DNA of 42,027 nucleotides from a virus. A program made the position numbers and the translations under genes. The notes beneath the pieces are model-generated. The model searched no databases. It was given only the letters and a program-made list of their open reading frames with translations, and was not told where the DNA came from. The stretch lies in the IMG/VR virus record IMGVR_UViG_3300020476_000001, positions 1-42,027 of that record; one strand, given 5' to 3'. Positions 36,451 through 41,662 of the stretch are shown piece by piece (within the stretch, counting starts at the first letter, position 1; the number at the start of each line of letters is the position of its first letter).

Positions 36451-37915
36451 AGTGCACTCCGTTGCTCATGTCGGGAGCCTTGGGGTCGTATCCCATACCT
36501 ACGGTACTGGGCAACGGGTTCTTGTTCCTGGACTGCCCTCTTGATGAAGCCACCATCATGAGTGCATACCGGGTTGCATCCATGAGGTCGTCGTACTTTT
36601 TGACGATCTTCCCCTGCTTTCGGTGGTAGGTCCGGTACTCATCAAACCACTCGGTCAGGTGCTCGAAGACTCGTAGCCGGCCCTCTCCGAGGTAGCTTTG
36701 CATCTTGGAGATGGCGGGCTCGACATAGTTGGAGCCGTCATCATTGACTGCGTGGCTTCGCAGCATACGGACCCCGGCCTGCTTGTACATTGCCGCGTAG
36801 GTAAGGCCGGTTCCCCGGTCTTCCTGGTGGGCGTCATGTGGCCAAGCGACGGGGATCTGTGCGGCTCCACGGGAGAGGAGTGCGGAGACATGGCTCGAGA
36901 TCCGTGCGTCTAGGCTCTTGTAGCAGTCGGTGACGTAGACGGTGTCGGTATCCCGATCCCAGGCAAGCTGTACGAACGCGCAGGGGTGCACCCCACCGCC
37001 GAGGTCCAGCCCAAAGATCTTTGCAAAATGGCTAGGGATCTCGAACGCGGGGATGCGTATGGCTTCCTCTGGAACATCGTACACCTGTCCAGACCCCAGG
37101 ATCGGGATACCTTCGGCCCTCGCCGTGCGCTCATGGGCAGGGTAGCGCGCGAGGATCCGTTCGTGGTCTTCTGGTGCAATGTGGGCTGCATCCTTGATAC
37201 CCATTCGGACCATACCACGATCCGGGGTATTTGGCCTTGGGTAGAACATGCGGATGACTTCGCTCATTCCGAGGAGCGGGGTGGTGGTGATGTACGCGAT
37301 CCCACCCGTGGCGGTCATCCGGGCCAGGCCCTCTGTCCATTTTCCAATGGGGGGCTCCTCATCGCAGTGGAGGGCATGGAGGGTCTCTGACGCCCACGCA
37401 TCGTCATCCATGTCATAGGACATGAATTGCAGCGTGCTTTCCCCGCCTGTTTTGTGCTTGATACGGATGGTATCTACGAGGCCCGGTACGCCTGGGTGCA
37501 TGACGGGTTTGTCTGCGATGGTATCTTTGGGCACCATGCCAGTTCCCCAGCGCCCACGAGGCCCCAGGATCTTGCGCTGTAGGACGTCGCGTACCTTGCG
37601 TGTAGTCGGCCCAGCAACCCACATGCGGACGGGATGATCGAAGCGGAAGCCATCCCACCACTCTGGATAGAGGCCCGTCAGGTGGAAGCTGTCTTCGGCA
37701 GCCCCACAGGTGGTTTTTCCTAGCTGGTTGCCGGCAAGAAAACAGCGCTCATGCTTCCCCTTGCCCATCCGGTGAAATTCCTGCTGCTTCAGATAGGGTT
37801 TGTAGAGCGCTATCCTCTTCTCTGCTACCTTCGTCAGGCCCGCCACCACCTGCCGGATCTGCTGATCCGACGACGGCGGCAAGGAGCGCGTTGACGTCGA
37901 GGTCGATCGCGCCAT
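36443..37915 (-). CDS. terL: Terminase large subunit, 490 aa
   Basis: The ATPase shows an adenine motif (KQQEFHRMG, about residues 42-50), Walker A GNQLGKTT (about 61-68), Walker B LHALHCDEEP (about 183-192) and coupling motif AYITTTP. The RNase H-like nuclease shows three acidic sites: FGLDLGGGVHPC, WPHDAHQEDRG and KKYDDLMDATRYAL. All catalytic elements seem intact. It cuts and packages DNA at the portal. ATG 37913-37915 has GGGAGG 6 bases upstream, inside the small-subunit gene, so the genes truly overlap by 167 bases in different frames. Confidence 0.95.
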   Translation of the reverse strand: MARSTSTSTRSLPPSSDQQIRQVVAGLTKVAEKRIALYKPYLKQQEFHRMGKGKHERCFLAGNQLGKTTCGAAEDSFHLTGLYPEWWDGFRFDHPVRMWVAGPTTRKVRDVLQRKILGPRGRWGTGMVPKDTIADKPVMHPGVPGLVDTIRIKHKTGGESTLQFMSYDMDDDAWASETLHALHCDEEPPIGKWTEGLARMTATGGIAYITTTPLLGMSEVIRMFYPRPNTPDRGMVRMGIKDAAHIAPEDHERILARYPAHERTARAEGIPILGSGQVYDVPEEAIRIPAFEIPSHFAKIFGLDLGGGVHPCAFVQLAWDRDTDTVYVTDCYKSLDARISSHVSALLSRGAAQIPVAWPHDAHQEDRGTGLTYAAMYKQAGVRMLRSHAVNDDGSNYVEPAISKMQSYLGEGRLRVFEHLTEWFDEYRTYHRKQGKIVKKYDDLMDATRYALMMVASSRGQSRNKNPLPSTVGMGYDPKAPDMSNGVHYA

Positions 37916-38477
37916 CGCTGGCCTCCCATAGCGTGTTCTTCAGGTTCGAGAGCAGCTCATCCAGGGATAGCCCCTCGAGCGCCCCAACCTGCTCATGCCG
38001 GATCTTGGCTTCTCTCGGAAACATACCGAGTTCCCGTCCCAGAAGCTCGACTGCTGTATTGACCGCTTTTACGTCAGGCTTGGGGATGGGGTTCCCATCT
38101 TCGTCCTTGACGATCTCCCCTCGGTGGAGATGGAACTGGTTCCTGGCTTCATCGACGTTGCGGAGGAGCACCCGGAGCACGTCTTCTCGCGCATAGGTGA
38201 CATCCTCTAGCTGGCGGCGCATCCGCTCCTTCTGGAGCCACCCGATCCGCTCCCGGATCATCGGTTTCCGCTTCAGCTTGAGGGCCTGTGCGATAGGATC
38301 CTTCCCTTTGCCCCCCATGGCGAGGTAGGCGGCATCGGGCTTGAGCCCCCCAAGGGCGATATACTGGGAAAAATGCTCCCAGTGTGCCCTGGCAAGGGGC
38401 TCTGAGGGATCGAAGCCCTCGGGGAGCGCTATATGGCCCCAAGACCGGCTATCTCTAGGGAGAATGTCGGTATCCAT
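37749..38477 (-). CDS. terS: Terminase small subunit, 242 aa
   Basis: Residues about 30-90 carry a terminase small-subunit type HTH (HWEHFSQYIALGGLKPDAAY, then LAMGGKGKDPIAQALKLKR), a helical middle part, and a Gly/Asp-rich C-terminal tail that reads in another frame over the start of the large subunit. It would recognise the packaging site. ATG 38475-38477 lacks a Shine-Dalgarno; the bases before it are pyrimidines because the opposite strand there carries AGGAGG for the divergent gene. No better start is visible, so it may be leaderless or weakly translated. Confidence 0.8.
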   Translation of the reverse strand: MDTDILPRDSRSWGHIALPEGFDPSEPLARAHWEHFSQYIALGGLKPDAAYLAMGGKGKDPIAQALKLKRKPMIRERIGWLQKERMRRQLEDVTYAREDVLRVLLRNVDEARNQFHLHRGEIVKDEDGNPIPKPDVKAVNTAVELLGRELGMFPREAKIRHEQVGALEGLSLDELLSNLKNTLWEASDGAIDLDVNALLAAVVGSADPAGGGGPDEGSREEDSALQTLSEAAGISPDGQGEA

Positions 38478-39771: not shown

Positions 39772-40314
39772 ATGCCCACGAAGCTCCCCTTTGAGCCCGA
39801 AGACAGGAACTTCGCAAGAGATCCTATGGACCAGGCTTCCCTCAGCTTTGAGCGATGGGAGCGGATGGGGCGACCGGGGCCTGGGGAGCAGGGGAGTATC
39901 GGGCCTCTGCGCCCTGCAAGTATGGCCGCTGCCATTACCCGCGAAGGCATTGACATGGCCCCGCAAGTGCTTGCTCAGATAGGGGCAATGACTGCGGGTG
40001 GGGCATTGGCCAGGGGTGTAGGGATGGCCATGGGAGCCGCAGGACGCCAGATGGCTTCGGCATACTCGAGGGTGATACCGCTCGTTACTCGAACCGTAGA
40101 CCGCACCCAGGCCATGCTACTCCAAAGGAGTCAGTACCTTATGGCCATAGGCAAATGGAAATATATTCTTCCGCCGGGTGGGATCGGAGCGGCAAGCACT
40201 ACGCTCGGGAGCTACCACGCCCAGACGATGAATGCCCTTCGGGCTGCCCCCACGGATACAGACCCCTTCATGCGAGACTTGCCAGCTTATCCGAACAGAC
40301 AACCCAAGCCGTGA
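39772..40314 (+). CDS. Hypothetical protein with hydrophobic middle, 180 aa
   Basis: Residues about 48-90 are rich in Ala, Gly and Met (MAPQVLAQIGAMTAGGALAR, then GVGMAMGAAG) and could contact a membrane; the rest is Arg/Pro-rich. AGGAGG at 39759-39764 is 7 bases before the ATG, and the gap from the M15-like gene is one base. No family is recognised. It might help the neighbouring peptidase reach the cell wall or be a minor virion protein encoded outside the main operon. Confidence 0.6.
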   Translation: MPTKLPFEPEDRNFARDPMDQASLSFERWERMGRPGPGEQGSIGPLRPASMAAAITREGIDMAPQVLAQIGAMTAGGALARGVGMAMGAAGRQMASAYSRVIPLVTRTVDRTQAMLLQRSQYLMAIGKWKYILPPGGIGAASTTLGSYHAQTMNALRAAPTDTDPFMRDLPAYPNRQPKP

Positions 40315-40392
40315 CCGCAAGGCAGGCCGAAGCTCCGGGGAAGCCGACGATACGCCACCCGGACGGGAAGGACCTGGACAGTCCAAGCCTGT

Positions 40393-40735
40393 GAACATTC
40401 AAATGTACTGAGGCTCCTTGGCTTCCTCTACTCAGTACGAATGTTCTGACCCACTTGGGGGAAATTCTCCACGAACTACCGCTAGGTAGAGTGGCGGAGC
40501 CCTGCCTTAAACAACCAGGGTAATAGGTGAATGGACGTACCCCAGGGTCAGGAGACCCGTAGGTGAATTGTCCAGAGGGGATAGGTCAAGTGAAACCGGA
40601 CTGAAGTCACCGGACCCCACTCCCCCCAAGCGCTTTGCGAAGACGGCACAGCAGTGCCCCAGACCAGAAAGAACCTCTCCCCCCTACAGGGTGGGGTGGG
40701 GGCGGACGTTCCGCTTCCCTCCCGCTTTACACTCA
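40393..40735 (+). ncRNA. Candidate structured non-coding RNA (no gene for about 430 bases)
   Basis: Between 40315 and 40750 no protein gene is evident, yet the sequence is dense in perfect pairings. An extended stem forms from 40393-40400/40439-40446 plus 40405-40412/40431-40438. A three-way junction is closed by 40451-40455/40490-40494 and holds two hairpins (40458-40462/40466-40470 and 40476-40480/40485-40489). Further stems are 40500-40504/40516-40520, 40532-40536/40570-40574 around gggtc-AGGA-gaccc (40545-40558), 40645-40649/40654-40658 and 40702-40706/40710-40714. I cannot match it to a known RNA class. It may be a separate RNA or a long leader of the gene at 40751. An origin or packaging region built of inverted repeats is the main alternative. 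Confidence 0.5.
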
Positions 40736-40750
40736 CAGGAGAGAGACAAC

Positions 40751-40948
40751 ATGTTCGCAAGTATCGCAAAGAAGATGGGTCGTGGGCACGGTCACGTGGA
40801 GCACCAGGTGGGCGAGGTCGCGGCACCGCTCAAGGCTGCATACATGGAGGGACTCGACGAGGTTCGTAACGAGTACGTGGAGAAGAAGGCGCTCGAGGCG
40901 AAGCGCGAGGAGCTGGTCAAGCGCATCCTCAAGGAGATGGCTGCCTAA
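40751..40948 (+). CDS. Small basic helical protein, 65 aa
   Basis: An N-terminal basic stretch (MFASIAKKMGRGHGH) is followed by a single long charged helix (LDEVRNEYVEKKALEAKREE) that could form a coiled-coil dimer. CACAGGAG lies 9 bases before the ATG. The frame is open upstream into the folded non-coding region, but no start there has a ribosome site. The role is unknown. Small basic helical early proteins may bind nucleic acid, but no motif shows it. Confidence 0.6.
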   Translation: MFASIAKKMGRGHGHVEHQVGEVAAPLKAAYMEGLDEVRNEYVEKKALEAKREELVKRILKEMAA

Positions 40949-41042
40949 GCAGTTGTCATCACAGTGGTGATGGGCGGCCGGTCCAACCCCGCGCCGTTAA
41001 ACCGCATGTGGGGTCCAAAGCCCCCGCAACACACAGGAGAAC
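40949..41042 (+). promoter_or_regulatory. Repeated structured leader, copy A
   Basis: After the stop codon comes a hairpin (40957-40962/40967-40972, catcac-AGTG-gtgatg). Then comes the conserved block GTTAAACCGCATGTGGGGT (GTAAA-x-CGCAyGTGGGGT in the other copies), the facing arm ccccgc (41022-41027), and CACAGGAGAAC before the start. This copy has the proximal GTGGGG/CCCCGC pairing but lacks the distal CCCCATGTGC arm of copies B and C. Confidence 0.6.
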
Positions 41043-41048
41043 GTGAAT

Positions 41049-41324
41049 ATGCCCGCAATGGCAAGCGACATCGAGACCCGTGAGCTGGTGGACATCCAGG
41101 TCGGTATCGACCGCATGGAGCACCACCACAACGTCTACAAGGAGGTGCACGGCATCCGGCCCCGGTTCTGGGACCATGTCGAGTACGCCTTGATGTCAGC
41201 CCAGTGTTGGGAGGGTCTCCTCTTCGACCTCGAGCAGGAGTGGCAAGCCGTCCGCTTCTACGAGGACGACGATGCCTTCCCGACCTCGGGTGAGGGATGG
41301 GCTCTCGTCTCGGATGACAACTAG
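41049..41324 (+). CDS. Small acidic hypothetical protein, 91 aa
   Basis: No family is recognised. The protein is soluble and rich in His, Trp and acidic residues, with a helical middle (ETRELVDIQVGIDRMEHHHN). AGGAG is 9 bases before ATG 41049 and 3 before an in-frame GTG at 41043, the tandem-start pattern of this arm. It is the first of three consecutive small genes, each behind its own copy of the repeated leader. Confidence 0.6.
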   Translation: MPAMASDIETRELVDIQVGIDRMEHHHNVYKEVHGIRPRFWDHVEYALMSAQCWEGLLFDLEQEWQAVRFYEDDDAFPTSGEGWALVSDDN

Positions 41325-41427
41325 CTGAGGACACTCGGGGTTCCATCCCCCGAGGGTAAAGCGCACGTGGGGTAGTCCAAGCCCCCACAGTGGAGGGTAA
41401 AGAACCCCATGTGCAACACAGGAGAAC
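41325..41427 (+). promoter_or_regulatory. Repeated structured leader, copy B, with two competing stems
   Basis: The leader begins at the stop codon with CTAGCTGAGGACACTC. A 7-bp hairpin (41334-41340/41348-41354) follows, then GGTAAAGCGCACGTGGGG. The arm 41363-41372 can pair either near (GTGGGG with CCCCAC, 41383-41388) or far (GCACGTGGGG with CCCCATGTGC, 41405-41414, one G-U). The far stem ends 5 bases before AGGAG. The two foldings exclude each other. Confidence 0.6.
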
Positions 41428-41430
41428 ATG

Positions 41431-41568
41431 ATGGTCCAATGCACAAGGTGTGGGGAGTGGGAGAACGCATGGGATCTCGTTGATGGCTGGTGCATGTGGT
41501 GCACCTTGCCAGAGAACGACCCCGAGCACGAAGTCTTTCCTCCCGTCCGTGGAACAAAACCTAGCTGA
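41431..41568 (+). CDS. Very small zinc-ribbon protein, 45 aa
   Basis: A short gene between two leader copies, starting MVQCTRCGEWENAWDL and continuing with WCMWC. The two CxxC pairs 17 residues apart form a minimal zinc ribbon, and a Pro-rich tail ends at TGA 41566-41568. AGGAG is 6 bases before ATG 41431 and 3 before an adjacent ATG at 41428. Conserved Cys pairs, the ribosome site and leaders on both sides support it as a real gene despite its length. The role is unknown. Confidence 0.65.
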   Translation: MVQCTRCGEWENAWDLVDGWCMWCTLPENDPEHEVFPPVRGTKPS

Positions 41569-41662
41569 GGGCACTCAGGCGCAAGCCTGGGTGTAAAGCG
41601 CATGTGGGGTCCCAAGCCCCCACGTTGGAGGGTGGTAAACCCCATGTGCAACACAGGAGAAC
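41565..41662 (+). promoter_or_regulatory. Repeated structured leader, copy C, with two competing stems
   Basis: The hairpin 41571-41580/41585-41594 (10 pairs, two G-U) is closed by a GCAA tetraloop. GTAAAGCGCATGTGGGGT follows. The arm 41600-41609 can pair near (GTGGGG with CCCCAC, 41618-41623) or far (GCATGTGGGG with CCCCATGTGC, 41640-41649, two G-U). Compared with copy B, the base change C to T in the left arm keeps pairing through a wobble. CTAGCTGAGG and CACAGGAGAACATGA flank it as in copy B. Confidence 0.6.

Follow-up and report, generated by a model that had tools for sequence, protein, structure and literature searches.

The window, that is, the whole stretch of DNA analysed here, is a 42,027-bp virus record whose first 77 bases are identical to its last 77 bases. 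We read this identity as an assembly overlap and the genome as complete and circularly assembled. Terminase, a T7-type portal and capsid are encoded by leftward genes, and the structural half also carries, on the − strand between 12410 and 30135, three giant proteins of 2810, 1399 and 1359 aa that are presumably virion or ejection proteins. A rightward gene group extends from about 38433 to the end of the window and continues from position 1. Within this group lies a 436-bp gap (40315-40750), bordered upstream by an ORF at 39772-40314 and, directly 3′, by a 65-aa ORF on the + strand (40751-40948) that is preceded by an SD-like site, CAGGAG (40736-40741), and shows a weak AbpA-like match under the cut-off. 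The preliminary description of this locus had reported about 430 bases without a gene, and this was borne out: none of the frames has an ORF that spans 40315-40750. Since, in addition, the partial frames tested gave no match to Pfam or PHROGs families, a coding region on either strand of the gap was rejected. Neither a sigma-70-type promoter nor a + strand terminator was found near the gap region. Phages can use promoters of other types than sigma-70. ARAGORN detected no tRNA or tmRNA in the genome.

Structure prediction on the + strand placed most of the gap inside one closed unit. Its long-range closing stem is predicted to pair 40308-40321 (GCCGU...CGCAAG) with 40634-40647 (TTTGCG...ACGGC), enclosing about 340 nt, with a pairing probability of 0.89 in the outer and 0.99 in the inner part; in a 750-nt context these values were 0.65-0.83. 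The folding unit thus begins at about 40308, roughly 90 bases 5′ of the start proposed previously; that start, 40388, was too late and left the 5′ strand of the closing stem outside the claimed region. Inside the closing stem, an extended hairpin (40393-40446, +) consists of two 8-bp stems (40393-40400/40439-40446 and 40405-40412/40431-40438) separated by a 4-nt bulge and capped by an 18-nt loop, with a pairing probability of 0.97-0.98 and a z of −4.4. It is followed by a multi-branch core (40454-40630, +) with arms B to E, the outer stem of which, CTTGGGGG/CCCCCAAG (40454-40461/40623-40630), is uncertain (0.32-0.73). When the 5′ part was included, this stem and the base of arm D, the fourth arm, reached a pairing probability of only about 0.3. 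Robust pairing (0.92-1.00) was predicted for the extended hairpin and for the tips of three arms, B, D and E, among them the GGGTC-AGGA-GACCC hairpin at the tip of arm D (40545-40558, +; 0.99), and fairly robust pairing (0.78-0.87) for arm C. A 9-mer, TAGGTGAAT, is repeated on the + strand within 40523-40568, with copies at 40524-40532 and 40560-40568 and a third, imperfect one at 40581. The local pairings named in the preliminary description, namely the 8 + 8 bp extended stem, the CTTGGGGG/CCCCCAAG stem and the hairpin with an AGGA loop, do therefore exist.

Folding energies were measured against dinucleotide-matched shuffles. The + strand of the gap region folded at −138.4 kcal/mol (z −2.90) and none of 100 shuffles was as good, while the − strand was weaker (z −2.07). 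However, among 127 equally long sense-strand windows from this genome, 8.7% had an equal or lower z, and by our estimate about 7 complementary 7-nt pairs should arise by chance in 471 bp. The statement that the density of pairings is hard to explain by chance was therefore too strong. Of the shuffles, only 2.5% contained a long-range helix as good as the closing stem, and so did only 2.9% of the genome windows; the segment tested had been picked so as to fit the stem. The ensemble definition of the fold was ordinary.

No family of Rfam 15 reached its gathering score within 40297-40750, the best chance match being mir-662, which scored 22.6 bits where its cut-off is 88, so that the covariance-model search agreed with the earlier remark that no known class could be recognised. 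Group I and group II introns and RNase P were rejected because the region did not match their Rfam core models, and a tRNA or tmRNA because neither Rfam nor ARAGORN gave a match. Letters of the conserved loop of the Type-P5 twister (RF02684), CCAAGCC, recur at 40298-40310 and 40377-40389; nevertheless, a twister at 40377 was rejected, as RF02684 was unmatched in the region even at E≤10. The region is like ROOL and GOLLD, large non-coding RNAs of phages and prophages with elaborate folds that have been studied by cryo-EM (PMC12286853), only in being a candidate for a large, branched phage RNA without an assigned function. These RNAs are often located near tRNA islands, and many of the GOLLD RNAs are longer than 800 nt (PMC12286853). 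The candidate, in contrast, is shorter (about 350-400 nt), matches neither of the two nor any other Rfam family and belongs to a genome without tRNA. Accordingly, the label of candidate new phage structured RNA could be kept in part: the region is a candidate, being without Rfam class and better folded on its + strand than the shuffles, but its novelty is undemonstrated and its z is not extreme for this genome.

Although the gap region itself is not a twister, Type-P5 twisters were found directly downstream on the same strand. Two of them, at 40966-41025 (40.7 bits) and 41564-41621 (45.2 bits), exceeded the RF02684 gathering score of 37.6. A further twister-like element at 41324-41385 (+) had no Rfam twister match and was recognised by self-BLAST, with 80% identity over 111 nt to the copy at 41564. 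Small ORFs alternate with these copies downstream of the region, forming ORF-ribozyme units. What had been taken for leader-controlled small genes are thus small ORFs with twisters between them, and two of the supposed leaders are the Type-P5 ribozymes. Twister ribozymes cleave at a U-A step (PMC5408937), which makes it probable that cutting of the transcript occurs between these small genes. The position of the ribozymes directly downstream on the same strand also implies that the + strand of the region is transcribed.

Searches with the neighbouring proteins recovered a sole close relative, an IMG/VR genome referred to here as L002, which stems from sample IMG 3300009103. A block spanning 40297-40701 (+), which holds the proposed RNA and overlaps the end of ORF 39772-40314 by five codons and the stop, differed from L002 at only 2 of 405 positions (99.5% identity). 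Both differences fall at positions predicted to be unpaired, one of them (40404) in the bulge of the extended hairpin. Upstream of about 40295, the 3′ part of ORF 39772-40314 was non-homologous in L002, and downstream of 40701 divergence increased. Hence, the near-identical block roughly matches the limits of the fold, whereas the neighbouring genes showed either 12-16% divergence at fourfold sites or no homology. This near identity suggests constraint on the RNA block. It is merely suggestive, because the two genomes form a mosaic with many near-identical tracts: a quarter of all aligned 405-bp windows have at most five differing bases, and several genes have zero differences at fourfold-degenerate sites. 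The identity was accordingly rejected as proof of selection, given the equally similar tracts elsewhere in the pair. L002 has a fusion of the first twister with the downstream part of the third copy (41324-41385) and lacks the two genes between them. Since the join falls within the ribozyme, this loss of two ORF-ribozyme units looks like recombination between twister copies.

Wider searches, which covered phages, plasmids, pattern matches in IMG/VR and 2.8 Mb of fetched loci, returned no diverged homologue of the region. DNA similarity in phages and plasmids amounted to nothing beyond short chance matches, and an exact 27-mer of the region hit a single stretch in viral contigs. The pattern TAGGTGAAT-gap-TAGGTGAAT occurred in 64 stretches of viral contigs and was real only in L006, which is the L002 contig; the remaining stretches failed a covariance model of the core. 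In prokaryote genome contigs, nhmmer and blastn found no similarity among the pattern matches listed. Taken together, pattern scans and the core covariance model gave no true homologue beyond L002 in the sequences searched. Two sequences considered as diverged relatives for their capsid, terminase and Rad52 genes (L086 and L087) end short of the region. A distant relative, G001 (L107/L112, IMG/VR 3300009370_000065; TerL 49%), resembles the window in having, at the equivalent position, a non-coding stretch rich in GC and in hairpins (L112:1240-1579, − strand, z −2.3). That stretch, however, has another predicted layout and no detectable sequence similarity to the RNA of the window, and G001 was rejected as a diverged homologue, its sequence at the corresponding place being unrelated. 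On the same strand of this contig, a hairpin-rich non-coding stretch of about 600-700 nt (L112:880-1579) lies 3′ of a zinc-finger-like ORF.

The explanation that we tentatively prefer, while giving it somewhat less than an even chance, is that the gap encodes a folded non-coding RNA domain of a rightward polycistronic transcript, which twister cleavage would separate from the genes downstream. The domain would comprise about 340-400 nt (from about 40308 to 40647, possibly to 40701) and would sit between two genes of the long rightward operon. Transcription of the + strand would yield it within the polycistronic RNA, where this segment would adopt a closed fold with several arms. By cleaving itself, the Type-P5 twister at 40966-41025 would then part the domain from the genes further downstream, leaving a processed piece made of the RNA domain and the 65-aa gene. 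In this piece the domain could function as a stable RNA or, as the 5′ part, have a protective or regulatory role. We infer its transcription, its release and any function; the lack of a gene, the predicted folding, the downstream twisters at Rfam level and the one near-identical relative are in its favour. That it represents an undescribed class of phage RNA, about 350-400 nt long, with a long-range closing stem, at least four arms and downstream genes separated by twisters, is doubtful, and the region is plausibly regarded as an orphan structured phage RNA candidate and not as a demonstrated class.

A serious rival to the RNA domain, though in our judgement an unlikely one, is a neutral foldable spacer: an intergenic spacer or remnant without RNA function, whose moderate fold would be driven by composition and whose identity with L002 would reflect recent exchange. 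It is consistent with a z inside the genome's own spread and with the many tracts equally similar between the window and L002. Neutral spacers in compact phage genomes are usually lost or fast-diverging, and this argues against a spacer here, as do the uncommon long-range closing stem and the rough coincidence of the near-identical L002 block with the fold limits. Alternatively, the region could be a long 5′ leader that regulates the 65-aa gene in cis, with alternative pairing of its segments to the ribosome binding site or the start codon setting translation. The region does lie directly 5′ of the SD-like site of this gene; moreover, the SD region (40733-40739) finds a complement in 40388-40394, and the start region (40754-40760) in the closing-stem strand 40635-40641. 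Yet a stretch of this length should contain 7-nt complementarities by chance, and these regulatory pairings were rejected as being at chance level. In addition, the C-terminal part of the 65-aa gene is strongly diverged in L002 and the RNA block is not. We consider such a leader unlikely.

A DNA element, either a replication origin or a packaging site in which the inverted repeats act as DNA, had also been put forward. Apart from the inverted repeats and the repeated TAGGTGAAT 9-mer, which would fit it, no positive evidence emerged: an iteron array, an A+T-rich segment and a sharp skew switch are all absent from the region, and its GC content (about 0.58) is the same as that of its surroundings. 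The pac site of P22-like headful phages usually lies within or close to the gene for the small terminase, whose position here is 37749-38477. We therefore regard a DNA element as very improbable.

If confirmed, the RNA domain would be an addition to the orphan structured RNAs of phages, and one whose polycistronic transcript appears to be divided by ribozymes into gene-sized pieces. If not, the locus would serve as a caution: unless diverged homologues can be compared, dense folding in a single GC-rich genome is weak evidence.

Other folded elements were observed elsewhere on the + strand of the window. A strongly folded intercistronic element at 85-180 (z of about −7 in a 200-nt window) is not in Rfam and is near-identical in L002, with one difference in 92-200. 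The ORF at 963-1847 contains very stable in-frame folding around 1340-1420 (z of about −8 for 991-1353), as well as an internal SD-like site with an ATG at about 1419, and may represent two genes or hold a translational control element. On the 3′ side of this ORF, a hairpin followed by a T run (1866-1912) has, by eye, the appearance of an intrinsic terminator.
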